Of a stretch of DNA of 33,450 nt, positions 10,448 through 25,367 are shown piece by piece. The notes below the pieces were generated by a model, which had not been told where the DNA came from, searched no databases, and was given only the letters and a program-made list of their open reading frames with translations. The translations under genes and the position numbers were made by a program. The stretch is from Myxococcaceae bacterium. GTDB lineage: Bacteria > Myxococcota > Myxococcia > Myxococcales > Myxococcaceae. Position 1 is the stretch's first letter. Every line of letters begins with the position of its first letter. The stretch lies in the NCBI GenBank assembly GCA_022616315.1, contig JAKEEX010000550.1:1-33450 (forward strand). Direction: 5' to 3'.

Positions 10448-11554
10448 ATGGAATTCCGGATTGCCGTCGAAGAGCTGAAGAAGGCCCTCCATCGCTCCCT
10501 TGGCATCGTGGAGCGCAAGACGACGATGCCCATCCTCGCCAACGTCCTGCTCAACGCGAGCAAGACCGGGGTGACGGTGACGGCGTTCGACCTGGACATC
10601 GGCATCGTCAGCGAGCACGCCGCGGAGGTGCTCAAGCCGGGCGCGGTGACGGTGTCGGCGAAGTACCTCTTCGACATCGTCCAGAACCTGCCCGAGCCCG
10701 CCGTCACGCTGAAGAAGCTGGCGAACAACTACGTGGACATCAGCAGCGGCCCGGTCCACTTCAAGATCGTGGGCATGGCGCCGGAGGAGTACCCCAAGCT
10801 CCCCAAGGAGGAGAGCGCGCCGCTGGTCCACGTGAACGGGGCCACGCTGCTGGAGATGATCAAGAAGACGGCCTTCGCCATCTCCTCGGACGAGACGCGC
10901 TACATCCTCAACGGCGTCTTCTTCGAGCCCCGCGCGGACGGCAAGGTGCGCATGGTGGCCACCGACGGCCACCGCCTCGCGCTCATCGAGCGTGAGATGG
11001 AGGGCGAGTTCAAGCTGAAGAGCGGCGTCATCATCCCGCGCAAGGGCCTCTTCGAGCTCAAGCGGCTCCTGGACGAGGCGCCCGAGGCGGAGTGCCAGCT
11101 GGGCTTCGCGGAGAACTCGGCGCTCTTCAAGAAGCCGGGCCTCACCATGGTGATGCGCCTCATCGACGGGCAGTTCCCCGAGTACCAGCGCGTCATCCCC
11201 AAGGAGGGCGAGAAGCAGGTGGGCGTGCCGAAGGTGCGCTTCCTGGAGGCGCTCAAGCGCATTGCCCTCCTGAGCGCGGACAAGAGCAATGCCATCCGCG
11301 TGGGGCTCTCCGACAACCAGCTGCGCATCACGAGCCACAACCCGGACCTGGGCGAGGCGAAGGACGACGTGGATGTGACGTTCCGCGGAGAGGCCTTCGC
11401 CATCGGCTTCAACGCGAAGTACATCATCGACGTCCTCTCCGTGCTGGAGCAGGACGAGGTGATCTTCGAGCTGGGGGACGAGCACAGCCCCGGCGTCCTC
11501 CACGCACCCGGTGACCGCAGCTTCACCGCCGTGGTCATGCCCATGCGCGTCTGA
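10448..11554 (+). CDS. dnaN: DNA polymerase III beta subunit (sliding clamp)
   Basis: 368 aa, normal length for DnaN. It forms the dimeric ring that tethers the replicative polymerase and other DNA-processing factors to DNA. The first domain opens MEFRIAVEELKKALHRSLGIVERKTTMPILANVLL. The central FAISSDETRYILNGVFFEP...VATDGHRLALIE element is the most conserved clamp signature. The C-terminus ends VVMPMRV, the usual clamp tail that lines the peptide-binding pocket used by the polymerase. In many bacteria dnaN follows dnaA. Here the preceding gene is an unrelated divergent lipoprotein and dnaA is not in the window. It is followed by a palindromic repeat and then a good intrinsic terminator, so dnaN is probably monocistronic. 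Confidence 0.98.
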   Translation: MEFRIAVEELKKALHRSLGIVERKTTMPILANVLLNASKTGVTVTAFDLDIGIVSEHAAEVLKPGAVTVSAKYLFDIVQNLPEPAVTLKKLANNYVDISSGPVHFKIVGMAPEEYPKLPKEESAPLVHVNGATLLEMIKKTAFAISSDETRYILNGVFFEPRADGKVRMVATDGHRLALIEREMEGEFKLKSGVIIPRKGLFELKRLLDEAPEAECQLGFAENSALFKKPGLTMVMRLIDGQFPEYQRVIPKEGEKQVGVPKVRFLEALKRIALLSADKSNAIRVGLSDNQLRITSHNPDLGEAKDDVDVTFRGEAFAIGFNAKYIIDVLSVLEQDEVIFELGDEHSPGVLHAPGDRSFTAVVMPMRV

Positions 11555-11562
11555 GAAGGAAC

Positions 11563-11596
11563 CCCCTCTCCCCCTGGGAGAGGGACAAGGTGAGGG
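11563..11596. repeat. 34-bp palindromic repeat, copy 2 (downstream of dnaN)
   Basis: It begins eight nt after the dnaN stop. The perfect 9-bp inverted arms CCCTCTCCC/GGGAGAGGG have a CCT loop (11564-11584), then GACAAGGTGAGGG. It differs from copy 1 at 2443-2476 at only two positions (GG versus AA). Lacking a T-run, it is not itself a canonical terminator, but it could stabilise the 3' end of the mRNA. Confidence 0.85.
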
Positions 11597-11628
11597 CCAG
11601 CCGCAACCGGCCTCCTTCACCGTGAACC

Positions 11629-11669
11629 AAGGGGCGAGCCTCCACGCGGGGCCCGCCCCTTCAGTTTTT
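11629..11669 (+). terminator. Rho-independent terminator of dnaN
   Basis: A perfect 8-bp stem, AAGGGGCG (11629-11636) with CGCCCCTT (11654-11661), is followed three nt later by TTTTT (11665-11669). The G+C-rich loop can pair further. It lies about 75 nt after the dnaN stop, in the right orientation. Confidence 0.65.
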
Positions 11670-11735
11670 CCGGGGATGTCCCAGGAGCGGACACGCCGTG
11701 TCACCTGCCCAACTCAGTCCCCCGCCGTGGGGTGC

Positions 11736-11764
11736 TTGCAGGTTTTTTAGCACGCTGCTAAAGA
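11736..11764 (+). promoter_or_regulatory. Predicted promoter of the BlaI/M56 operon
   Basis: TTGCAG (11736-11741), a 17-bp spacer and TAAAGA (11759-11764), 31 nt before the repressor ATG. The -10 match is weak (3/6), but the sequence is locally A+T-rich and coincides with the palindromic operator. Confidence 0.4.
11746..11762. promoter_or_regulatory. Palindromic operator, presumably bound by the BlaI-type repressor
   Basis: TTTAGCA-CGC-TGCTAAA is a perfect inverted repeat with 7-bp arms. It overlaps the predicted -10 of the BlaI-type gene, and an extra partial half site (CTAGCA) follows at 11766-11771. BlaI/MecI/CopY repressors bind dyads at their own promoters as dimers. The sequence differs from the TACA/TGTA core known in staphylococci, so the assignment rests on position and symmetry. 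Confidence 0.6.
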
Positions 11765-11795
11765 ACTAGCATCCTCGATTGAGGGAGGCACGGGC

Positions 11796-12185
11796 ATGGC
11801 GAAGGACCCCACGACGGACCTGAGTCGACGCGAGCGGCAGATCTTGGACGTCATCTACCGGCTCGGCCGGGCCACGGTGGCGGAGGTGGTGGCGGACCTG
11901 CCGGACGCGCCCAGCTACTCCGCGGTGCGTGCGCTGATGGGCATCATGGAGGAGAAGGGCCAGCTGACGCACGAGCAGGACGGTGCGCGCTACATCTACC
12001 TCCCCACCGTGTCCCGGGAGAAGGCGCGCAAGGGCGTGCTGAAGAGCGTGGTGCAGACGTTCTTCGACGGCTCGTCGCGGCAGGCCATCGCCGCGCTCCT
12101 GGAGCTGCCGGAGTCGAAGTTTTCGCGCGAGGAGCTGGATGCGCTCTCCGCGCTCATCGAGAAGGCCAAGAAGGAGGGGAGGTGA
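11796..12185 (+). CDS. BlaI/MecI/CopY family transcriptional repressor
   Basis: 129 aa, the standard length of the family. The N-terminal winged helix-turn-helix is clear: LSRRERQILDVIYRLGRATVAEVVADLPDAPSYSAVRALMGIMEEKGQLTHEQDGARYIYLP (shown in part by its order of helices and wing). A C-terminal helical dimerisation region of about 50 residues follows (VQTFFDGSSRQAIAALLELPESKFSREELDALSALIEKAKK). These repressors are inactivated by proteolysis triggered by a BlaR1-type M56 membrane protease. That partner gene starts 3 nt after this stop, with its ribosome-binding site (GGAGGGGAGGTGAG) inside the end of this gene. Autoregulation through the palindrome at 11746-11762 is likely. Confidence 0.93.
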   Translation: MAKDPTTDLSRRERQILDVIYRLGRATVAEVVADLPDAPSYSAVRALMGIMEEKGQLTHEQDGARYIYLPTVSREKARKGVLKSVVQTFFDGSSRQAIAALLELPESKFSREELDALSALIEKAKKEGR

Positions 12186-12188
12186 GCC

Positions 12189-15100
12189 ATGGACACGCTG
12201 CTCGACTTCGTTTCTGCGCGCGGCCTCTCGGAGGTCGCAGGCTGGCTTCTGGTGGACGCGTCGCTGCGGGTGACGGTGCTGCTCGCGGCGGTGGCGCTCG
12301 TGGCATTCGGTCTGAAGCGTGCCTCGGCCACCGCGCGTCACCTCATCTGGTGCCTGGGCGTGTGTGGCGCGCTGGGCTTGCCGCTGCTCGGGGTGCTGCT
12401 GCCCGCGTGGGAGCTCGCGGTGCTGCCCTCCGCGGAGCCGCGCCCGGTGTTCCACCCCACGCGTGACGACGCGCCGATGCTGCTGGCGCCGAGGCCGAAG
12501 GAGCATCACGCGCCGCTGCGCACCGGGGTGCTGACGGTCACGCGGATGCCCGTGGGAGGGGACATGCGCGGCGAGAGCGCGGTGGCGGTCATCGTGCCCG
12601 CGGTGGGCGAGCAGCTCGTGCCCATGGCCTTGCACGTCAACGCTGCGCCCGTGGTGCCGGCGGCCCCGGTAGCGGTGGAGCGTCCCTCGCGCGGGGCGGG
12701 CCCGTGGGCGTGGGCGCTGGGCGCATGGCTCCTCGGCGCGGTCCTCGTGTCCCTGCGGCTGGTGCTCGCGCGAGTGGCCGTGTGGCACCTGGGGGCGCAG
12801 GCCGAGCCGGTCGCGGACGGGGAGCTCCTCGCGCACCTCCAGAACACGATGCGTCGGCTCCGCGTCGAGCGTCCGGTGCGCCTGCTCGAGTCGGACGCGG
12901 TGACGTTGCCCCTCACCTGGGGCGTGCTGCACCCGACGGTGCTGCTGCCGCTGGACGCAAGGACCTGGACGACGGAGCGGCTGGACCAGGTGCTGCTGCA
13001 CGAGCTGGCGCACGTGAAGCGGCTGGACGCGCTCACGCAGCTGCTCGCGCAGGTGGCCTGCGCCTTCTACTGGTTCCACCCGCTGGTGTGGCTCGCCGAG
13101 CGGCGCATGCGCACCCTGCGCGAGTACGCGTGTGACGACCAGGTGCTCGCCGCAGGGACCCGCGCGTCCGACTATGCGCGCGAGCTGCTGGAGATGGTGC
13201 GGACCCTGGGACGTGGGGACCTGGCGCACTCGGCCACGCTGGCCATGGCCAGGCCCTCGCAGGTGGAGGACCGGCTGCGCGCCATCCTGGACCCGGCCCG
13301 GCGCCGCGCCGCGCTCGGACGCGTGCGGGCCGCGTTGCTCGGCCTGGTCGCCTTCGCCTTCGTCGTTCCCCTGGCGGCGCTCCAGCCCGCGCAGGCCCAG
13401 GAGACGCCGCGCGCGGAGCAGCGCCGCTCGCGCACCCTGCCTCGGCTGAGCGCCGAGGAGAGCGAGCGCCGTCAGACCGACTACCGCCCGGAGGCGCTGG
13501 AGGAGACCGGCCCGAAGGCCCGCGAGGAGGAGGCGGGGAACGAGGAGACGCAGGGCGGCGGCTGGATGGCGGACCCGGTGGAGGAGGCCCGCAAGAAGGC
13601 GCGCGAGCAGGGCGTGGCCGTCGGCACCGGAACGGAGTCCGGGGAGGAGCAGGGGCGCGACACCGGGGAGCCGCAGGAGCGGTTCGGACGCGGGAGTGAC
13701 CCCGAGGCCGCCATCGCCCTCGCGTTGAAGAAGGCCCGCTCCGACGAGGAGCTCGTCGCCGGGCTGAAGCTCGTGCTGCGCGAGAGCGACCTCCCGCGGG
13801 AGGAGACGCGTCAGGCGTTCCTCAAGGCCGTGGAGCGGGTGCGGGACCCGGCGCGGCGGAGCGGCCTACTGGTGCAGGTGCTGCGCGAGTGCACCATCAC
13901 GGAGGACACCGGCCGAACGCTGCTCCACGTGTCCCGCGGCGTCGAGGACGACGGCCACCTCCTCAAGGTGCTGGGCATGGTCCACAGCATCAAGGAGACG
14001 GACGTGATGTATGGCCCGCTCATGGTGGATGTGCTGAAGACCGCCGAGGTGCTCCGTGCGCCCCCCGCGCGGGCGAAGGCGCTGCGCCAGGTGCTGGACG
14101 AGGCGCCCATCTCCGTGGAGACCGGCCGCTCCGTGCTCGGGCTGGCCGCGGGCCTTGGCGACGACGTGCTCGCGCGCAAGGTGCTGACGCGCATGCATGA
14201 GATCAACGAGCGCAACCTGGTGCGCGGTCCCCTCGCCAACGACTACCTCGAGGTGACGCGGCGCATGGGCTCCGAGACGGAGAAGGGGCGCGCGCTGGCG
14301 GCCTTCCTGGAGGCCGAGCCCCACAAGCGGGAGGCCACCCTTCGCGCACTCGAGCTGGCGCAGTCCCTCGGCTCCGTCGAGGCGCGCGCCTCCGTCCTCA
14401 ACTCCGCCGTCTCGCTGCGCGATGGTGACCCGGAAGTGCGTCGTGCCGTGGAGGCGCTGGCCCGCTCCACGCCGGGAGGGATGTCCGAGGTCCTCGTGCA
14501 GGCCGACGACCACGACCACAAGCACAAGCACAAGGACAAGGACAAGGATCAGCACGGCCGGCACTGGGTGTCCGCCCAGGAGTGGCGGTCCATGTCCGAG
14601 GAGGAGCGCGAGCGCATCCGCAAGGAGTCCAGCGAGGCGTGGAGCTCCATGTCCGAGGAGGAGCGCGAGCGCATCCGCGAGGAGTCCCGCGAGGCCGCGC
14701 GGCAGGCCCGGGAGGCGGGGCGCGAGGCAGCGCGGCAGGCCCGCCAGGAGGGGCGCGAGGCGGCGCAGCGTGCACGCGAAGAGGCGCAGCGAGCACGTGA
14801 GGAGGCGCAGCGGGAGCGTGAACGCGCGCACGAGGAAGCACGGCGCGCACGCGAGGAGGCACAGCGCGCGCGTGAGGAGGCGCAGCGGGAGCGCGAGGAG
14901 GCCCAGCGGGAGGCGCAGCGGGAGCGCGTGGAGGCCCAGCGGGAGGCGGAGCAGGAGCAGGCCATCGCCCAGCGCAACTCGGCGCGCGACAGCCAGGCGC
15001 GCGAGCGCGTCGAGGCGGAGAGGAAGCGCTTCGAGGAGGCCAAGCAGTCCCTGCGCGCCCAGGCGGAGAAGCTCCGCGCCGAGGCGAACAAGCTGGCCGA

Positions 15101-15230
15101 GCAGATGCGCGAGCAGGTGAAGCAGATTCGCGAGCGCGTGCAGCGTGAGCTCGAGAGCGCGGAAATCGAGGACATCGACCTGGACGACGCCTTCGAGTAC
15201 GAGTTCGACGTGGACATCGACGTCGAGTGA
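12189..15230 (+). CDS. M56 (BlaR1-like) membrane metalloprotease fused to a long helical repeat/E-R-rich rod domain
   Basis: 1013 aa. Topology resembles BlaR1: membrane segments near 12-37, 47-66 and 172-197, then a cytoplasmic zinc protease domain with HELAH (271-275), the downstream Glu312 in REYACDDQVL, and a fourth membrane segment at about 380-398. Everything after residue 400 should be periplasmic. In BlaR1 this part is a penicillin-binding sensor, but no SxxK/SxN/KTG serine-transferase motifs are found here. Instead there is an acidic linker (about 405-505), degenerate helical repeats (about 505-770), a tract alternating H/K/D at 773-787, a very long E/R/A-rich helix with heptads (about 801-990), and an acidic end (EIEDIDLDDAFEYEFDVDID). 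The rod includes a 57-bp tandem repeat. Presumed role: on sensing an unknown envelope signal, trigger cleavage of the co-encoded repressor. The sensor part is unlike any domain I can name. Confidence 0.85.
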   Translation: MDTLLDFVSARGLSEVAGWLLVDASLRVTVLLAAVALVAFGLKRASATARHLIWCLGVCGALGLPLLGVLLPAWELAVLPSAEPRPVFHPTRDDAPMLLAPRPKEHHAPLRTGVLTVTRMPVGGDMRGESAVAVIVPAVGEQLVPMALHVNAAPVVPAAPVAVERPSRGAGPWAWALGAWLLGAVLVSLRLVLARVAVWHLGAQAEPVADGELLAHLQNTMRRLRVERPVRLLESDAVTLPLTWGVLHPTVLLPLDARTWTTERLDQVLLHELAHVKRLDALTQLLAQVACAFYWFHPLVWLAERRMRTLREYACDDQVLAAGTRASDYARELLEMVRTLGRGDLAHSATLAMARPSQVEDRLRAILDPARRRAALGRVRAALLGLVAFAFVVPLAALQPAQAQETPRAEQRRSRTLPRLSAEESERRQTDYRPEALEETGPKAREEEAGNEETQGGGWMADPVEEARKKAREQGVAVGTGTESGEEQGRDTGEPQERFGRGSDPEAAIALALKKARSDEELVAGLKLVLRESDLPREETRQAFLKAVERVRDPARRSGLLVQVLRECTITEDTGRTLLHVSRGVEDDGHLLKVLGMVHSIKETDVMYGPLMVDVLKTAEVLRAPPARAKALRQVLDEAPISVETGRSVLGLAAGLGDDVLARKVLTRMHEINERNLVRGPLANDYLEVTRRMGSETEKGRALAAFLEAEPHKREATLRALELAQSLGSVEARASVLNSAVSLRDGDPEVRRAVEALARSTPGGMSEVLVQADDHDHKHKHKDKDKDQHGRHWVSAQEWRSMSEEERERIRKESSEAWSSMSEEERERIREESREAARQAREAGREAARQARQEGREAAQRAREEAQRAREEAQRERERAHEEARRAREEAQRAREEAQREREEAQREAQRERVEAQREAEQEQAIAQRNSARDSQARERVEAERKRFEEAKQSLRAQAEKLRAEANKLAEQMREQVKQIRERVQRELESAEIEDIDLDDAFEYEFDVDIDVE
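14589..14702. repeat. 57-bp (19-residue) tandem repeat in the rod domain
   Basis: The units starting at 14589 and 14646 each encode SMSEEERERIR followed by (K/E)ES(S/R)EA. The first 33 bp are identical in both. This is a recent duplication inside the E/R-rich helix. Confidence 0.9.
14758..14948. repeat. Degenerate 21-bp repeats encoding heptads (AREEAQR type)
   Basis: Successive variants of GCGCGTGAGGAGGCGCAGCG encode A/E-R-E-E-A-Q-R heptads with Ala at regular spacing. The pattern is typical of a coiled coil or a single-alpha-helix (ER/K) domain, and of sequence prone to length change by slippage. Confidence 0.75.
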
Positions 15231-15313
15231 ACACCAGAAGGCGTCATGTGCGTGTGTCACGGCGCGCCGCGGCAATGACGGCAACGAGAGGCCTCTGCTA
15301 CGCATGAGAGGCC

Positions 15314-17320
15314 ATGCGCTCCACGCCGAGGTTCGCTCGCGTCGCGCCTCTCTGGTTCCTCGCCGCCTGCGCCGCGGTGCAGGTGCCGGGGGATGCGGAG
15401 CGTGAGGCGCCCGTCGAGGACACGCAGCGAAGGACCCTGTCCGGCGCCACGTTCGTCGTGCCCTCGGGCTGGTTCCTGACCGAGCACGGGGACCACTTCA
15501 CCCTCGAGGACCCTGAACGCGAGCTTCGCCTCACCCTGCTCGAGCTCCCCGGGCCCAGCGCCGAGGCTGCGGTCCGGGATGCGTGGCAGAAGGCTGAGCC
15601 CGGCTTCGCACGGCCGGTGCTTCAGTCCCTTCGCCCGCCTCCCCGCGACGGGTGGGACGAGCTGAGTCAGGTCAGCTACGAGACGGGCGCGCAGCAGGCT
15701 CGGCGGGTGCTCGCCCTGGCGCGCAGGGTTGGGGGCACCAACTACGTGGCGCTGCTCGACGGCACTTCTGCTGCGGTGGACCGTCGTGGCGCGCAGGTGA
15801 ACCAGGTGGTGCTCGGCTTCAAGCCACCGTCGCTCGGCGAGGAGTCCTTCGCCGGAAGGTCGCCACGCAGCCTCTCCCCCGAGCGGTTCGAGGCGCTGGG
15901 CGCATTCGTCGAGCAGACGCGAATGCAGGTGGGCATTCCGGGTGTGGCGCTCGCCGTGGTGCAGGACGGGCGCGTCGTCTACGCGCGAGGCTTCGGCGTG
16001 CGGGAGCAGGGAAGCAAAGAGCCCGTCACGACGGAGACGCTGTTCCTCATCGGCTCCACCACCAAGTCACTCACCACGCTGATGATGGCGCGGCTGGTGG
16101 ACCAGGGGAGGCTCGCCTGGGACACGCCCGTCACCCGGCTCCTGCCCACGTTCGCGCTCGCGGACGCGGAGGTGACGAGCGCGCTGACCCTGAAGGACAC
16201 CGTGTGCGCCTGCACCGGACTGCCGCGGCAGGACATGGAGATGCTCTTCGAGTTCGCGGGCGTCAGCGCGGAGCAGCGCATCGCCGAGCTCGGGGGCATG
16301 CGCCCCACCACGGGTGTGGGCGAGACGTTCCAGTACAGCAACCCCATGGTGTCCGCGGGCGGCTACATGGCGGCGCATGCGTACGCACCGGAGTTCCCGC
16401 TCGAGCAGGCGTATGACCGGGCCATGCGAGCACTCGTCTTCGACGCGCTCGGGATGAAGGCCACCACCTTCGACTTCGGCAAGGCGCTCCGCGGGAACCA
16501 CGCCAGCCCGCACGGTCAGCGCCTCACGCGTGAGTACAGCCCGGTGCCAGTCAGCGCGGAGGCGGCGCTCGTGCCCGTGCGCCCGGCGGGTGGGGCCTGG
16601 TCCAACGTGCGAGAGCTCTCGCGCTACGTCCTGCTCGAGCTCTCGGAGGGCCGGCTTCCCGGGGGCAAGCGGCTCGTCACGGCGGAGAATCTGCTCGAGC
16701 GGCGTCAGCCCCGCGTGAAGGCCTCGGACACGGTGAGCTACGGACTGGGTCTCTTCGCGGGAGACGACCACGGCGTGCGCGTCGTCGGGCACGGGGGAAA
16801 CACGCTCGGCTTCAGCTCGGACCTCTTCTTCCTCCCCGAGGCCGGCGTGGGCGCGGTGCTCCTCACCAACGTCCAGGGGGACAGCACCTTCCGCAACGCC
16901 GTGCGCCGCAAGCTCCTGGAGCTCCTCTACGACGGCAGGGACGTGGCGCGGGAGCAGCTGGAGTTCGCGCTCCTCGCCCAGCGTGAAGCGGCGGAGAAGC
17001 AGCTCTCACGCTTGAAGCCGGAGGCGGACGCGGCGTGGCTCGCGGGACTCGCGGGGAGCTACCGCCACCCGGGCCTCGGCCCCATCACGCTCGAGGTGGA
17101 AGGAGCGAGCGCGGTGGTGGATGCCGGCGAGTGGCGGAGCGCCGTGGGGGAGAAGGTGGAGCCGGACGGGACGCGCAAGCTCGTCCTCCTGGACGCCCCC
17201 ATGGCGGGACTGGAGCTGCTGCCCCGCCAGGAGGGAGGCCGCACCGTGCTCGCGCTCGAGCTGCCGCAGCAGCGCTACGTCTTCGAGCCGGAGAAGACGC
17301 GCGCCGCCGACTCACGGTGA
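15314..17320 (+). CDS. Lipoprotein serine hydrolase of the class C beta-lactamase/esterase family
   Basis: 668 aa. A lipoprotein signal ends in the lipobox LAAC19. Residues about 40-175 form an extra N-terminal domain (TFVVPSGWFLTEHGDHFTLED...) of unknown function. The serine hydrolase domain begins near LSPERFEALGAFVEQTRMQVGIPGVALAVVQDG. It has all three active-site motifs of the family: S248-TTK251, Y341-SN343 and H493-GG495. A C-terminal domain of about 150 residues follows (ending LPQQRYVFEPEK), typical of PBP-AmpH/esterase-like relatives. Such enzymes hydrolyse peptides, esters or D-amino-acid links, and few are resistance beta-lactamases. It lies 83 bp after the M56 gene in the same direction, so it may be the output of the BlaI/M56 switch. 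GAGAGG precedes the ATG. Confidence 0.85.
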   Translation: MRSTPRFARVAPLWFLAACAAVQVPGDAEREAPVEDTQRRTLSGATFVVPSGWFLTEHGDHFTLEDPERELRLTLLELPGPSAEAAVRDAWQKAEPGFARPVLQSLRPPPRDGWDELSQVSYETGAQQARRVLALARRVGGTNYVALLDGTSAAVDRRGAQVNQVVLGFKPPSLGEESFAGRSPRSLSPERFEALGAFVEQTRMQVGIPGVALAVVQDGRVVYARGFGVREQGSKEPVTTETLFLIGSTTKSLTTLMMARLVDQGRLAWDTPVTRLLPTFALADAEVTSALTLKDTVCACTGLPRQDMEMLFEFAGVSAEQRIAELGGMRPTTGVGETFQYSNPMVSAGGYMAAHAYAPEFPLEQAYDRAMRALVFDALGMKATTFDFGKALRGNHASPHGQRLTREYSPVPVSAEAALVPVRPAGGAWSNVRELSRYVLLELSEGRLPGGKRLVTAENLLERRQPRVKASDTVSYGLGLFAGDDHGVRVVGHGGNTLGFSSDLFFLPEAGVGAVLLTNVQGDSTFRNAVRRKLLELLYDGRDVAREQLEFALLAQREAAEKQLSRLKPEADAAWLAGLAGSYRHPGLGPITLEVEGASAVVDAGEWRSAVGEKVEPDGTRKLVLLDAPMAGLELLPRQEGGRTVLALELPQQRYVFEPEKTRAADSR

Positions 17321-17327
17321 CGGTCTC

Positions 17328-18275
17328 TCAGCTCTCCGCGCTGCCGCTGCTGCCGCGCTTGAACAGGCGAGCAATCATGGCGCCGATGGCCACCACGCCG
17401 ATGATGATGAACTTCTTGCCCGCGACGAGCAGGGCGATGAGGGCCTTGAAGAGACCCGCCTTGACCGCCAGCTTGCCCGCGACCAGGCCGCCGATGCCGT
17501 AGGCCGCCAGCCGGCCGGTGTCCGGGTCGAACTCCTCGTAGCGGTGGCCCGGCTGGAACTCCACGAAGGCGAGCACCTGCTTCATGTTCTCCTTCACCTG
17601 CGGGAGCGCGCCCATGTCCGCCACCGCGTTGAGCTCGAGCACGCCCTCCTTGCCCAGTGCGCGGATGTTGTAGTTGAGCGTGTGGGGGGACTCACCGAAG
17701 GCGAGCTCCTTGGCCCAGTAGAGCTTCTTGGTCGCGGTGTCGTAGTGCGGCGGCTCGGCCCAGCCCACGAGCTCGAGCGACTCGAAGCCGGCCTTCACCC
17801 GCTCCTCGCTCGCCTCCGCGGTGGACTCCTGCATCTCCTGGAGCAGCTCGGCGTAGTCGATGCTCGCCGCGTCCTCGTCGTCCACGTGGCCATCGTCCGC
17901 ATAGGTGATGACCACGCCCCAGCTCTCCTTCTCGGCGGGGTGCACGTCCGCGGGCACGAGCATGCCGAGCGTGCCGAGCGTGCCGCTGCCTTCCGGGTTG
18001 CCCCAGATCTTCGTCAGCACCAGCTCCGCCTGCTTCGGGTCGAGGTAGCCGAAGCTCTCGGGCACCGTCAGCTTCGCCATGCCGCCAGGGAGCACCACCT
18101 CGCCGCGCTGGAGCGCGAGCTCCGGAAGCGCAGCCTCCTCACCCTCCGCGGAAGCCACTCCGGGAGCGCCCTCGGCAGGCTCGGCCTCTGCGGGTGGCGC
18201 CGGGGGCACTGCAGGGGCCTGGGCCCAGGCGGACAGCGCGGACAGGGCCGCGGCGAGTGCCAGACTGCGCTTCAT
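17328..18275 (-). CDS. DUF2167 membrane protein
   Basis: 315 aa from the ATG at 18275 (GAGGAGAAC ribosome-binding site). The frame is open to 18857, but the upstream part overlaps the divergent glutaredoxin gene. A signal peptide (LALAAALSALSAWAQA) and a Pro/Ala/Glu-rich linker are followed by the DUF2167 core. Its characteristic features are LQRGEVVLPGGMAKLTVPESFGYLD, WGVVITYADDGHVDDEDA, DYAELLQEMQ, LVGWAEPPHYD, KLYWAKELAF and LNYNIRALGKEGVLELNAVA. Near the C-terminus two closely spaced hydrophobic segments (LVAGKLAVKAGLFKALIALL, FIIIGVVAIGAMIARLF) give a membrane anchor. Most of the protein faces the periplasm. Function is unknown for the whole family. It is convergent with the serine hydrolase gene, with seven bp between the stops. 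Confidence 0.88.
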   Translation of the reverse strand: MKRSLALAAALSALSAWAQAPAVPPAPPAEAEPAEGAPGVASAEGEEAALPELALQRGEVVLPGGMAKLTVPESFGYLDPKQAELVLTKIWGNPEGSGTLGTLGMLVPADVHPAEKESWGVVITYADDGHVDDEDAASIDYAELLQEMQESTAEASEERVKAGFESLELVGWAEPPHYDTATKKLYWAKELAFGESPHTLNYNIRALGKEGVLELNAVADMGALPQVKENMKQVLAFVEFQPGHRYEEFDPDTGRLAAYGIGGLVAGKLAVKAGLFKALIALLVAGKKFIIIGVVAIGAMIARLFKRGSSGSAES

Positions 18276-18443
18276 CGATGTTCTCCTCAGGTGGGGGCAA
18301 TGCGCTGCCCGGCGACATCCTAAGGGGACGAAGGAGCGAGCAGGGAATCGGGCTCTCGCCCACGCGCCTCCCGAGGGGCAACGCGCCGCGGCAGGGCTTC
18401 CGCTGGTGCCTACCTTTCCCCCCAAATCCGGAGAGCTGCCGCC
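18276..18443. promoter_or_regulatory. Divergent intergenic region (DUF2167 / glutaredoxin-like)
   Basis: 168 bp that must hold both promoters. I see no clear -35/-10 pair or dyad in it. Confidence 0.35.
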
Positions 18444-18728
18444 ATGACCACCATCGTCCTTTACACCCGGCGCGACCACCCCGAGTGCGCCCTGGCCCGG
18501 GAGCTCCTGTGGGCCAGGAGCCTCCACTTCGAGGAGGTGGACGTCGGTGATGAGCTGCGCTTCGCCGAGATGGTGGCGCGCACCGGAGGAGCGGGCGCGG
18601 TGCCGCAGCTCTTCATCGACGACTACCACATCAACGGCTGGCGCGAGCTCAAGCACCTGGAGGAGACAGGCGTGCTCGAGAACATGGTGAGCGACGTGGC
18701 CACCATGGTGGCGCAGCCGAGCAGCTAG
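18444..18728 (+). CDS. Glutaredoxin-like protein lacking the nucleophilic cysteine (HPEC in place of CPYC)
   Basis: 94 aa, the length of a small glutaredoxin. The fold signature is good: a beta strand VLYTRRD, the active-site turn, helix ALARELLWARSLHFEEVDVGD, then the cis-Pro element GAVPQLFIDDYHINGWRELKHLEETG, which corresponds to the TVPQIFI...HIGG glutathione-binding region. At the active site the usual C-P-Y-C is H12-P13-E14-C15, so the N-terminal nucleophilic Cys is replaced by His and only the second Cys remains. Classical disulfide reduction is therefore unlikely. A glutathione- or metal-binding role or a non-catalytic role is possible. The stop codon shares CTAG with the stop of the convergent acetyltransferase gene. 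Confidence 0.85.
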   Translation: MTTIVLYTRRDHPECALARELLWARSLHFEEVDVGDELRFAEMVARTGGAGAVPQLFIDDYHINGWRELKHLEETGVLENMVSDVATMVAQPSS

Positions 18729-19210
18729 GTGCCCAGGCGCAGGCGGTACACGTGCTCGCCATCGCTCAGGGCGCGCAGCTCCGTGAAGCCGACCTTCTCG
18801 TAGAGCCTGCGCGCGCGCTGGTTCTCCGCGTGGACGGTGAGCTGGAGCGCGCGGCATGAGGGGTGCTCTGCCTCGAGCTTCCGGGCGAGCGTCTCGAGTG
18901 CACGCCCTCCATAGCCCTGCCCCTGGTAGCGCCGGTCCACGAAGAAGTGGGAGAGCCAGTAGTTCTCTTCGCTCCCCGGCTCGTACGCGAGCACCAGGAA
19001 GCCCACCATGGCGATGCCGGCGTAGATGCCGAAGGGCACGACGGGAATGCCCGAGGGACGCACGTAGGCCTTGGCCAGCGCGATGGCGGCCGGCGGCTCC
19101 ACGTCCGCGACGAAGCGCTGCTGTGCGGGGTGCACTCCCAGGGCGAGCGCGTCCCGCCAGTTGGCGCGCGTCACCTCCTGGAGGGAGACCTCCAGTCGTG
19201 GATTGAGCAT
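18725..19210 (-). CDS. GNAT family N-acetyltransferase
   Basis: 161 aa from the ATG at 19210 (GGAGGGGGCAGTGAGG just upstream). The frame is open further upstream through low-complexity sequence that overlaps recF on the other strand. The acetyl-CoA-binding motif A is intact: LSHFFVDRRYQGQGYGGRALETLARKL (Q/R-x-x-G-x-G form). Motif B follows as LQLTVHAENQRARRLYEKVGFTEL. The N-terminal LEVSLQEVTRANWRDALALGVHPAQQRFVADVEPP matches spermidine/diamine acetyltransferase-like relatives of the SpeG/BltD group. The substrate is thus perhaps a polyamine or amino compound, but this is uncertain. Cytoplasmic, no partner gene evident. Confidence 0.88.
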   Translation of the reverse strand: MLNPRLEVSLQEVTRANWRDALALGVHPAQQRFVADVEPPAAIALAKAYVRPSGIPVVPFGIYAGIAMVGFLVLAYEPGSEENYWLSHFFVDRRYQGQGYGGRALETLARKLEAEHPSCRALQLTVHAENQRARRLYEKVGFTELRALSDGEHVYRLRLGT

Positions 19211-19493
19211 CCTCACTGCCCCCTCCCTACCACCGCCGCGCCATCGCGTGCGCGCGTCGCCCATCCACACAGGTAGGGCGCCACGCCCCGGTGTGGGAGC
19301 GCCCCGGGGGATGCCCACGTGGCTCACGCAGTGGACAGCCCCGCCTGCGCCGCGCCCGGCCTGCCCACCGTTGACGCACCACCCTCCGCCTGCTCTATGC
19401 CTCCCGCCCCCGGATCCGCTTCCGGTCCCGGTCCCGCCGCCGAACCCGTTCCCGGTCCCCCCTCCGCTCCCGCTCCTGCTCCCGGTCCACCGC
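19211..19493. promoter_or_regulatory. Divergent region upstream of recF
   Basis: 283 bp. The part next to the acetyltransferase holds its ribosome-binding site and presumably its promoter. The part next to recF (about 19400-19493) is almost purely C-rich on the plus strand, with recurring CCCGGTCC units and no purine-rich ribosome-binding site. The recF frame is open throughout, so a Pro-rich N-terminal extension cannot be excluded. Confidence 0.45.
19445..19471 (-). other. Candidate G-quadruplex motif on the recF template strand
   Basis: On the minus strand, four G-runs of at least three (19471-19469, 19462-19457, 19453-19451, 19447-19445) are separated by loops of 6, 3 and 3 nt, meeting the usual G3+N1-7 rule. 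Further GGG runs flank it (19483-19481, 19435-19433, 19429-19427). Confidence 0.5.
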
Positions 19494-20606
19494 GTGCGCC
19501 TCCTCTCCCTCCACGTCCAGCGCTTCCGCAACCTCACCGAGGTGTCGCTGGTGCCCGGGGCGCACGCCACCGTGGCGGTGGGGCAGAACGGGCAAGGGAA
19601 GACGAACCTCCTGGAGGCCATCTACCTCCTCGCCACGCTGAAGCCGCTGCGCGCGAGCCGCCTCTCGGAGCTGGTGCAGTTCGGCGCGCAGGGAGCGCGG
19701 GTGTCGGGGCGCTTCCTGCTGAAGGGGGCCGAGCGGGAGATTGCGGTGGAGCTCGCCGAGGGGACCCGCCAGGCCTTCGTGGACGGCAAGAAGGCCGCGA
19801 GCCTGGAGGACTACTTCGGGGGCGTGTCGGTGGTGGCCTTCACTCCGGACGACCTGGAGGTGGTGAAGGGCGCGCCGGAGGCACGGCGCCTCTTCCTCGA
19901 CAGGGCCGTCTTCAACCGCTTCCCCGCATACCTGCGCGAGACGCGCTCCTACGCCCGCGCCCTCAAGAGCCGCAACCGCCTGCTGAAGGAGCGCGCGCCG
20001 GAGGAGGTGCGCGAGGCCTTCGACGAGACGCTGGCCCGCGCGGGCGCGCGGCTGTGGGTCCGTCGCCGGGCCCTGGTGGACGAGGTGGCCCCGCGCGCGC
20101 AGAGGGCCTTCGCGTCCATTGGACGCACGCCCCTGCCACCCGGCTATGCCTACACGCCGGTGGGCCTGCCGAAGGGCCTCGACTTCGCCGTGGCGGAGGA
20201 GGCGGCCCTCGTGGAGGTGCTCGCCGCGGCGCTGCGGACCCGCGCCCCGCGCGACACCGAGCGCGGCTTCACCAGCGTGGGTCCGCACGCGGACGACCTC
20301 ACGCTGACGCTCGGCGAGCGCAGCGCCCGTGCATATGCGAGCCAGGGCCAGCAGCGTGCCCTGGTGCTCGGCTGGAAGATTGCGGAGATCGAGAACCTGG
20401 AGCTCGCCACCGGCGTGAAGCCGCTCCTGTTGCTGGACGACGTCTCCAGCGAGCTGGACCCGGAGCGCAACGCCTACCTGATGGAGTATGTCGCGGCCAG
20501 CGGCGCGCAGGTGTTCCTCACCACCACCGACGCGGGGCTGGTGGCCCGGGCCGCGGGTCCGGACACCCTCTGGCTCACCGTGCGCGGCGGAGCGGTGACG
20601 GATTGA
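19494..20606 (+). CDS. recF: DNA replication/repair protein RecF
   Basis: 370 aa from a GTG at 19494 (VRLLSLHVQRFRNLTEV), which matches where RecF proteins normally begin. RecF is an SMC-like ATPase that loads RecA at single-strand gaps with RecO and RecR. Walker A is G30-QNGQGK36-T37, the signature region is YASQGQQRALVLGWKIAEIE, and Walker B is LLLLDDVSSELD, followed by QVFLTTTDAGL. No ribosome-binding site precedes the GTG. The leader is C-rich and the open frame reaches back to 19071, so either the start is unusual or initiation is leader-dependent. The stop is 15 bp before the next gene. It lies about 8 kb from dnaN and 2.3 kb before gyrB, a loosened version of the common dnaN-recF-gyrB order. 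Confidence 0.95.
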   Translation: MRLLSLHVQRFRNLTEVSLVPGAHATVAVGQNGQGKTNLLEAIYLLATLKPLRASRLSELVQFGAQGARVSGRFLLKGAEREIAVELAEGTRQAFVDGKKAASLEDYFGGVSVVAFTPDDLEVVKGAPEARRLFLDRAVFNRFPAYLRETRSYARALKSRNRLLKERAPEEVREAFDETLARAGARLWVRRRALVDEVAPRAQRAFASIGRTPLPPGYAYTPVGLPKGLDFAVAEEAALVEVLAAALRTRAPRDTERGFTSVGPHADDLTLTLGERSARAYASQGQQRALVLGWKIAEIENLELATGVKPLLLLDDVSSELDPERNAYLMEYVAASGAQVFLTTTDAGLVARAAGPDTLWLTVRGGAVTD

Positions 20607-20621
20607 GGAAGCGGAGAGCCC

Positions 20622-21095
20622 ATGGCCGCGGAGCTGATGCGTACGCACTTCCACCCGTACGACGCGCGTGTGCCCCGTCTTCTCCTCGCGGTGGTGGCCG
20701 CGGGGTGTCTCGGGCTCGTCGCGTGGGCGGTGCGCAATGCGCTGACCGGGGTGGAGCCCTACGCGTGGGCACGCGCTGGTGTCGCGGCGCTCCTGTGGAC
20801 GAGCCTCGTCGTGTCCCTGCTCCGTCTGCGTCCCCGCGACGGCTTCGGTGTGCTGCTCACCTCGCCGGGCGTCGTCCTCTCGCGTCCGCTGTATGGGGGC
20901 CCCATCGAGCTGGCCTGGCGACAGGTGCAGCGGCTCAGTCGCGAGGGTCGGAGGCGTGACAGGTTGGTGCTGGTGCTGCAGGAGGGGATGGGGCGCGTGG
21001 TCATCCCCCGCCTCCTCTTCCCCTCGCGGGAGGCCTTCGAGGCGCTGGCGCAGGACCTCGAGTCGCACCTTCCCCGCGGCCCGTTCGATGCCTGA
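20622..21095 (+). CDS. Small membrane protein with two N-terminal TM helices and a PH-like C-terminal domain
   Basis: 157 aa. Two hydrophobic helices lie at about 20-40 (LLLAVVAAGCLGLVAWAV) and 48-66 (AWARAGVAALLWTSLVVSLL). The cytoplasmic part reads LLTSPGVVLSRPLYGGPIELAWRQVQRLSREGRRRDRLVLVLQEG. That is the strand pattern of bacterial PH-like domains, with the typical 'I.W..V......' element. I cannot name a characterised family. The ATG follows recF by 15 bp with a GCGGAGAG ribosome-binding site, so it is probably co-transcribed with recF. Function unknown. Confidence 0.75.
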   Translation: MAAELMRTHFHPYDARVPRLLLAVVAAGCLGLVAWAVRNALTGVEPYAWARAGVAALLWTSLVVSLLRLRPRDGFGVLLTSPGVVLSRPLYGGPIELAWRQVQRLSREGRRRDRLVLVLQEGMGRVVIPRLLFPSREAFEALAQDLESHLPRGPFDA

Positions 21096-21217
21096 CGGAC
21101 GCGCACGAGGTCGACGCTGACGCGGGAATGTGACACCCGGCTCCCCCGCTCCCGCGTGACAGCCGACGCGTGAGACACGACACTGGGTGCCGCACGTTGA
21201 CCGGAGGGAGGCGCGCC

Positions 21218-21589
21218 ATGGCCAAGAGGCGGAGCGAGCTGGAGACGGGCTGGACGTTCCTGACCAACCACGCGCACGTGCTCCTGTGCATCGCCCGTGA
21301 GCCGGACCTCCGCATGCGGGACCTCTCCGAGCAGGTGGGCATCACGGAGCGCGCGGTGCAGCGAATCGTCGCGGAGCTCGAGGAGGGCGGCTACCTCAAG
21401 CGCACGCGCGATGGGCGCCGCAACCACTACCAGGTGCGCGGGGAGCTCCCGCTGCGCCACCCGGTGGAGGCCCACCGGCGCGTCTCCGCGCTCATCGCCA
21501 TGGTGTACGGCGGGGACGCGTTCGCACCGCCTTCCCGCACCGCGGAGAAGGCCACGTCCACGAGGCGCAGGAGCCGCTCCGCGGCGTGA
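21218..21589 (+). CDS. Winged helix-turn-helix regulator (MarR/ArsR-like)
   Basis: 123 aa from the ATG at 21218, preceded by GGAGGGAG. The frame is open back to 21170 without a better start. The helix-turn-helix reads [63 protein letters not shown] (in part), including the wing ([11 protein letters not shown]). The C-terminal part is short ([18 protein letters not shown]) and ends in a basic tail [10 protein letters not shown] that could contact DNA. It has no ligand-binding domain, so it probably reads its signal through a partner or controls constitutively. It lies in the same direction as, and 117 bp before, the flavin reductase gene, which is a candidate target. Confidence 0.82.
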
Positions 21590-21706
21590 GAGGCACGCGG
21601 TGACAGCACCTCACCCCGGTGCACTTCCGCGCCCAACCACCCATCCCTAACTTCCCCCCCGCCGAGTGCACGCGGGGGCGCCTGCCCTGCGGGGAGGGGG
21701 AGGGGC

Positions 21707-22672
21707 ATGGGACAAGACACTCTGCGCGTGCGTGTGGCACGCATCACGCGCGAGGCCGAGGACATCCAGAGCTACGAGCTGGTGCCCGTTGACGCCCAGG
21801 CCCTCCCAGAATGGGACGCGGGCAGCCACCTGGACGTGGCGCTCCCCGGCGGCATGGTGCGGCCGTACTCCCTCTGCGGTGAGCCCACGGAGACGCACCG
21901 CTACCTCATCTCCGTGCTCCGCGAGGCGAACGGAAGGGGCGGCTCGCGCGCCATGCACGAGCAGGTGCGTGAGGGCACCATCCTCGCGGTGAGCCGGCCG
22001 CGCAACGCGTTCCGCCTGCGGCAGGCCCCCTTCTCCCTGCTGATTGCAGGCGGCATCGGCATCACGCCGCTGCTCGCCATGGCGCGCACGCTGCTTCGCG
22101 AGGGACGCGCCTTCGTGCTGCGCGTGTGCACGCGCTCGCCGGAGCGGACGCCCTTCACCACGCTGCTCGGCTCTCCCGAGTGGGCGCCGCACGTGCACCT
22201 CCACCACGACGGAGGGGACCCGTCGAAGGGCCTGGACGTGCGGGCGCTGCTCGCCCACCGGCCCCAGGGCGCGCACCTCTACTGCTGCGGCCCCGGCGGG
22301 CTCATGAGCGCGGTGCGCAGCGCGGCGCTCGGCGGCGCGTGGCCCGAGGAGGCGGTGCACTTCGAGTCCTTCACCGCCGAGCCACTGGTGGCGCGGGAGG
22401 GCGACGAGGGCTTCGAGGTGGTGGTCAAGTCCACCGGCCAGGTGCTGAAGGTGCCTCCGGGCAAGAGCATCCTCAACGTCCTCGTCTCCGCTGGCGTGAT
22501 GGTGCCCTCCGACTGTCAGGCGGGCACCTGCGGCACCTGCCTGACGAACGTCCTGGAGGGGGAGCCGGAGCACCGCGACTCCTTCCTCTCCGACGACGAG
22601 CACAAGGGCGGCAAGTGCATGACGGTGTGTGTCTCGCGGGCCCGCTCCAGGCGCCTCATGCTGGACCTCTAG
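21707..22672 (+). CDS. PDR/VanB-type oxidoreductase (FMN/NAD(P)H reductase with C-terminal 2Fe-2S)
   Basis: 321 aa, the typical size of phthalate dioxygenase reductase. Order of domains: a flavin-binding beta barrel with VRPYSLCGEP, the NAD(P)-binding domain with LLIAGGIGITPLLAMARTL and LYCCGPGGLM, and a plant-type ferredoxin domain from about 235. The latter has C270-x4-C275-x2-C278-x29-C308 within SDCQAGTCGTC...MTVCVSRA. Such reductases pass electrons from NAD(P)H to a Rieske oxygenase that demethylates or hydroxylates aromatic compounds. No oxygenase gene lies nearby, so the terminal acceptor is encoded elsewhere or is different. Cytoplasmic. The extra Cys305 close to the fourth ligand is unusual but probably harmless. 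Confidence 0.92.
   Translation: MGQDTLRVRVARITREAEDIQSYELVPVDAQALPEWDAGSHLDVALPGGMVRPYSLCGEPTETHRYLISVLREANGRGGSRAMHEQVREGTILAVSRPRNAFRLRQAPFSLLIAGGIGITPLLAMARTLLREGRAFVLRVCTRSPERTPFTTLLGSPEWAPHVHLHHDGGDPSKGLDVRALLAHRPQGAHLYCCGPGGLMSAVRSAALGGAWPEEAVHFESFTAEPLVAREGDEGFEVVVKSTGQVLKVPPGKSILNVLVSAGVMVPSDCQAGTCGTCLTNVLEGEPEHRDSFLSDDEHKGGKCMTVCVSRARSRRLMLDL

Positions 22673-25367
<2,695 letters not shown>

Follow-up and report, generated by a model that had tools for sequence, protein, structure and literature searches.

The window analysed here, a 33,450-nucleotide stretch that makes up the entire contig G000:C3 of a Myxococcaceae genome (5.5 Mb, 912 contigs, 93% complete, 3.8% contaminated), probably encodes an autoregulated switch of the BlaI-M56 derepression type in which another sensor has replaced the usual one. 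An earlier note on this DNA had described a bla-like three-gene set at 11736-17320 and proposed a BlaR1-type switch that senses something other than penicillin. Open reading frames and Pfam matches bear out the gene set, and the proposed switch is supported by intact protease residues, conserved predicted BlaI operators and a sensor modeled as an all-helical repeat.

Gene order, protease core and sensor fold

The three genes lie on the forward strand: a BlaI/Penicillinase_R repressor (11796..12185, 129 aa; PF03965, E 1.2e-25); an M56 metalloprotease-sensor that starts, as previously described, 3 nt past the blaI stop (12189..15230, 1013 aa; PF05569, E 1.6e-33, residues 179-366); and a lipoprotein serine hydrolase of the S12/class C beta-lactamase fold family (15314..17320, 668 aa; PF00144, E 3.3e-55). 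They follow dnaN and are succeeded by a convergent DUF2167 gene, GNAT, recF and gyrB. The interval 10448-25364, in which dnaN, recF and gyrB are present and the block stands between dnaN and recF, contains a single DnaA-box-like site with one mismatch, which is at chance level. The BlaI-M56-solenoid-rod architecture described below recurs in one relative, G047, the only orthologue among 96 family genomes; relatives were sought in genomes of the window's family, order and phylum.

The M56 gluzincin domain (12723..13286, +, residues 179-366) aligns to cryo-EM structures of BlaR1, 8EXS among them. HELAH (residues 271-275) and Glu312, both noted earlier, were found on residue check, and all eight BlaR1 catalytic residues that were checked have counterparts in the alignment. 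BlaR1 H201, E202, H205, D210, E242, D246, Y261 and R294 correspond to window H271, E272, H275, D280, E312, D316, Y329 and R362, which completes the HExxH...ExxxD peptidase motif together with the equivalents of Asp210, Tyr261 and Arg294. Asp210, Tyr261, Asp246 and Arg294 are described as critical in BlaR1 (PMC9834060). Because HExxH, the zinc Glu and the Asp/Tyr/Asp/Arg counterparts are present, the window protease is probably active. The four membrane segments claimed previously are also evident from hydropathy (centers at ~24-40, 58-73, 178-194 and 382-395), and a low-confidence full-length model (mean pLDDT 51.8) places helices at residues 10-41, 47-70, 172-203 and 374-396. Autocleavage is uncertain, since the residue aligned to Phe284, the bulky P1' residue that BlaR1 requires for this step (PMC9834060), is about Ala352, with Met353 next to it. 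Release of the BlaR1 sensor by the signal peptidase SpsB has also been reported (PMC9834060); by analogy, an AxA-like motif (AQA-Q) read after the fourth membrane segment in the window, with similar motifs in several relatives, could let a signal peptidase release the M56 sensor.

In the 613 residues that follow (401-1013), SxxK, SxN/SxC and K(T/S)G motifs are all absent, in agreement with the earlier note's statement that a penicillin-binding domain is absent, and the profile search that it recommended found no Pfam domain in this C-terminal part. Against NCBIfam blaR1_generic, the M56 protein scores 113 bits, where the equivalog cut-off is 400. Lacking the motifs and a Pfam match, and modeled as a helical solenoid, this part is not the penicillin-binding sensor of BlaR1/MecR1, and the locus is therefore an M56/BlaI system, not a BlaR1.

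In an AlphaFold2 model built from a single sequence, without alignment depth, residues ~500-765 (13686..14483, +) form an alpha-hairpin solenoid, all helical, with consecutive helix pairs at a pitch of ~35 residues (pLDDT 73.8). The nearest PDB folds are TPR/HAT-type solenoids with Foldseek TM-scores of only 0.3-0.4, a modeled likeness of fold class for which homology is not claimed; searching PDB sequences with a profile of the sensor returned no match. A profile built from the window sensor, its G047 orthologue and a paralogue in the window's own genome matches M56 repeat proteins at 1.3e-9 to 6e-7. These proteins belong to another family of the order and carry arrays such as LSSDYERGKVLNAL...MRSDYELGRVLQGF ('SDYExxxVL' repeats). 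In the opposite direction, a profile made without the window recovers the paralogue at 1.1e-11 and G047 at 4.3e-7, and hhalign of the solenoid against the SDYE repeats gives 96.9% (1.5e-10). Because both profiles and hhalign agree, we assign the sensor, as a divergent member, to a class of repeats already present behind BlaI proteins of this subfamily; homology of helical repeats to the SDYE array served as our informal mark of that class. SDYE-type sensor repeats are rare, occurring in 7 of 195 genomes of the phylum. We discounted weak profile matches in G013, G006, L058 and L059 as noise, since they were to TPR-like proteins, a histidine kinase and an ORF without relation to the sensor.

The repressor and its operators

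The window BlaI scores 90.5 bits against PF03965 (cut-off 22.6), placing it among Penicillinase_R winged-helix proteins. It is 61% identical to the BlaI of G047 and 53-58% identical to those of M56-SDYE loci, versus 30-35%, at most 35%, for the other BlaI lineage of its own family. Staphylococcus aureus BlaI is cut by its partner protease at Asn101-Phe102. The stretch that we matched to this site by eye, with no proper alignment, is AIAALLEL, which has no Phe.

Two tandem putative operators lie 25-59 bp 5' of blaI. Relative to the canonical site TGCTAA-N4-TTAGCA, defined by comparing BlaI-M56 loci, O1 (11737..11752, +; TGCAGG-tttt-TTAGCA) has three mismatches and O2 (11756..11771, +; TGCTAA-agaa-CTAGCA) has one; at the O1 position, G047 has a perfect TGCTAA-gttt-TTAGCA. 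Judged from sequence, the alternating TGCTAA/TTAGCA half-sites give blaI a palindromic operator at its own promoter, a feature that counted toward membership in the BlaI systems. A first operator pattern, TTAGCA-N3-TGCTAA, was dropped because it is the junction of two tandem canonical operators. The start coordinate of the earlier note, 11736, falls on this tandem operator, which went unmentioned there. A weak candidate promoter (11736..11764, +; TTGCAG -17- TAAAGA) overlaps the operators and has a counterpart at the same place in G047 (TTGCTA -17- TAAGAA); it fell below threshold in a sigma-70 scan upstream of blaI.

Across its 5.5 Mb, the window genome, G000, contains one exact TGCTAN6TAGCA core (O2, at the blaI promoter); G047 contains two, one of them at its blaI. 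Controls with the pattern reversed matched 2 and 6 times, so the count by itself is unremarkable; the noteworthy point is the position of the core at blaI in both genomes. The second G047 site, a perfect TGCTAAATAATTAGCA (G047:C240:11134-11149), lies close to a contig end, and no target gene for it could be named or recognized on that contig.

Beyond the tandem pair in G047, TGCTAA-N4-TTAGCA is present in two perfect copies in L089, and related sites occur in L088, L006 and L007 (TGCTAC-N4-GTAGCA in the last). In L005, from a MAG of Planctomycetaceae, a single half-site, ATTAGCAC, is clear; a full operator palindrome was not found at its BlaI locus. This operator type accompanies 'SYSAVR'-type BlaI proteins in the window's phylum and in Armatimonadaceae- and Aridibacter-titled MAG records, and tandem TACGAA-N4-TTCGTA sites accompany 'GYTTVL'-type BlaI proteins elsewhere in the window's own family. 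In these sequences operator class and BlaI lineage change together, and the second lineage within the family provides a natural control. The loci L010-L037, which pair tandem TACGAA-N4-TTCGTA with M56 proteins bearing 'AGVTPEYV' repeats, form a large uncharacterized set of M56 switches.

What the switch may control and sense

In the derepression switch that we favor, BlaI would occupy both tandem operators at the promoter of its gene, keeping the blaI-M56 transcript low. Four helices would anchor the M56 protein in the inner membrane and leave its gluzincin site on the cytoplasmic side; outside, in place of a penicillin sensor, would lie the TPR/HAT-like solenoid, then the long helix rich in charge and the acidic tail. 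A protein or polymer partner may alter the solenoid or rod and turn the protease on; active M56 would then cleave BlaI, derepressing the operon. With a single strict operator core in the whole genome, BlaI would directly regulate no operon but its own.

The blaI-M56 transcript possibly reads through into the hydrolase gene, since sequence scans of the 83-nt gap between them (15231..15313, +) found no BlaI operator, sigma-70-like promoter or terminator-like site, although in DNA this GC-rich, consensus scans for promoters and terminators carry little weight. The hydrolase has the S248-TTK, Y341-SN and H493-GG motifs reported earlier, scores 188 bits against PF00144 and thus carries the SxxK, YxN and HxG elements of the S12/class C family. 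It reaches 78 bits versus a cut-off of 415 for the class C beta-lactamase equivalog, and its best PDB match is IS11 (7spn, 1e-26). The shared strand, the featureless gap and the convergent gene immediately after the hydrolase would suit a three-gene system in which a BlaI-M56 switch evolved to control an envelope hydrolase, a reading that we consider rather unlikely in view of where its homologues lie. Hydrolase homologues above the cut occur at 12 places in 10 of 92 other genomes (36-63% identity), and none of the ten surroundings read, mostly ~4-5 kb either side and shorter at contig ends, has BlaI, M56 or other window neighbors beside them. In G047, which has the orthologous switch, the homologue sits on another contig; the BlaI-M56-SDYE loci L087-L090, which are short stretches, show no hydrolase-like match. 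The earlier expectation that the three genes stay together therefore holds for BlaI-M56-solenoid-rod, conserved in G047, and fails for the hydrolase, whose synteny is lost and which had been counted as a fixed part of the system. Because the G047 copy lies elsewhere and homologues never adjoin BlaI or M56 where read, the hydrolase is probably a local neighbor and at most a local cotranscribed output, its adjacency to BlaI-M56 being seen only in the window. In an Aridibacter-titled MAG (L007 9105-15893), a BlaI gene, an ankyrin-repeat M56 gene, a long ORF resembling a protease (S41-like by eye) and, farther downstream, an S12-type hydrolase gene lie in a row; the product of the last is 24% identical to the window hydrolase and keeps a functional link between switch and hydrolase open.

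It is also conceivable, if improbable, that M56 acts mainly on substrates other than BlaI, with BlaI solely an autoregulator and the whole a self-limiting envelope protease, not a gene switch. In keeping with this, the G047 operon has no obvious further gene and is followed by a convergent one; besides the copy at blaI, G047 has just one other strict operator, close to the end of a contig, and G000 has none away from the blaI promoter. On the other hand, control of a single operon is equally normal for bla systems, and weaker operators would escape an exact-core search.

What the favored switch senses depends on the C-terminal part of M56, where the helical repeats, H/K/D tract and E/R-rich rod described earlier are all real. 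The E/R/A/Q rod (14589..15158, +, residues ~801-990) consists partly of in-frame tandem repeats of 21, 33, 57 and 75 nt. Across 14504-15160 the tract and rod are made of in-frame tandem DNA repeats, and for this reason their length may vary between strains. Large hydrophobics make up only 5% of residues 801-915, and E-to-R/K i,i+3 pairs are overrepresented in the rod (27 versus 12.5, sd 2.7, in shuffles). This composition agrees better with a single charged helix than with a coiled coil; in the low-confidence full-length model the rod is drawn as one helix, 823-990. An acidic C-terminal tail, DIDLDDAFEYEFDVDIDVE (15159..15227, +), follows. G047 keeps the solenoid, a shorter rod and a shorter acidic tail (DDFDIDVDE).

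The sensor paralogue in the same genome (L038 4916-6748, on G000:C390) is a stand-alone 611-aa protein, predicted to be secreted, with a signal-peptide-like start, the TLPRL..ES.RR motif found after the fourth membrane segment of M56, a solenoid 47-49% identical to the window's and a C-terminal helix. It has no protease, adjoins FUSC-like and NADH-dehydrogenase-like ORFs (named by eye), and neither an operator of the BlaI type nor a BlaI gene was found nearby. It reads like a sensor cut loose at the fourth membrane segment. We regard as doubtful a mechanical or structural sensor reaching into the periplasm, in which lost or changed contact with the wall or outer membrane would trigger BlaI cleavage and the paralogue would compete for that contact as decoy, partner or reporter. 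If this were true, a charged helix of ~170 residues, roughly 25 nm if straight and acidic at its tip, would together with the solenoid span from the inner-membrane protease toward the wall or outer membrane.

A metal was among the cues suggested earlier. Sensing of zinc or copper, for example, through the H/K/D tract (14502..14549, +, residues 772-787), comparable with the copper-dependent activity proposed for PetP (PMC7896320), is very improbable despite six His among Asp and Lys in residues 771-800, because the tract is a 12-nt tandem DNA repeat found only in the window and missing from both the paralogue and the G047 orthologue, which retains solenoid, rod and tail without it.

Relation to known systems

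As a BlaI-M56 switch with an exchanged sensor, the window locus resembles BlaI-BlaR1 and MecI-MecR1 of Staphylococcus and Bacillus in its repressor-M56 gene pair, four membrane segments, palindromic promoter operators and HExxH...E gluzincin with conserved Asp, Tyr and Arg. It differs in having a solenoid and rod without a penicillin-binding sensor, and a hydrolase that is no recognized beta-lactamase. Non-beta-lactam switching of this type is already known from PetR/PetP of Synechocystis, a BlaI-like regulator and BlaR1-like protease that respond to copper and have a very small regulon (PMC7896320). The window shares the type of switch and, as predicted from its sequence, the non-beta-lactam signal and very small regulon; the regulated genes differ, and the copper sensing of PetP has no conserved counterpart in the window.

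Closer likenesses are found within the order. The M56-SDYE loci of another family (G084, G086, G092 and G094) share the BlaI subfamily and homologous helical repeats, and the two with upstream sequence (G084 and G086) have the same operator class; unlike the window, they have Pro-rich linkers and, in some of them, a beta-rich stretch before the repeats, and lack the rod and acidic tail. The common BlaI-M56 loci with 'LSVDQLVxLKxAGVTPEYV' repeats in the window's own family likewise have an M56 with a repeat C-terminus, and several have a BlaI-like ORF upstream, but the BlaI lineage, operator and repeats are different. Given that M56 proteins with this repeat class, and others with different C-termini, follow the same BlaI subfamily elsewhere, and given the PetR/PetP precedent (PMC7896320), the earlier statement that the combination matches no described system was too strong. 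A search for literature on M56 systems in soil phyla found nothing useful.

Sensors on other BlaI-M56 loci include ankyrin repeats and carboxypeptidase-regulatory domains, and the switch core and its DNA site appear, from the loci compared, to be common to several phyla. These observations support a view of BlaI-M56 as a general module, consisting of a conserved repressor, operator and protease, with exchangeable sensors. The operator class offers a direct route to regulon prediction, and the signals to which BlaI-M56 switches respond outside antibiotic resistance become amenable to testing.
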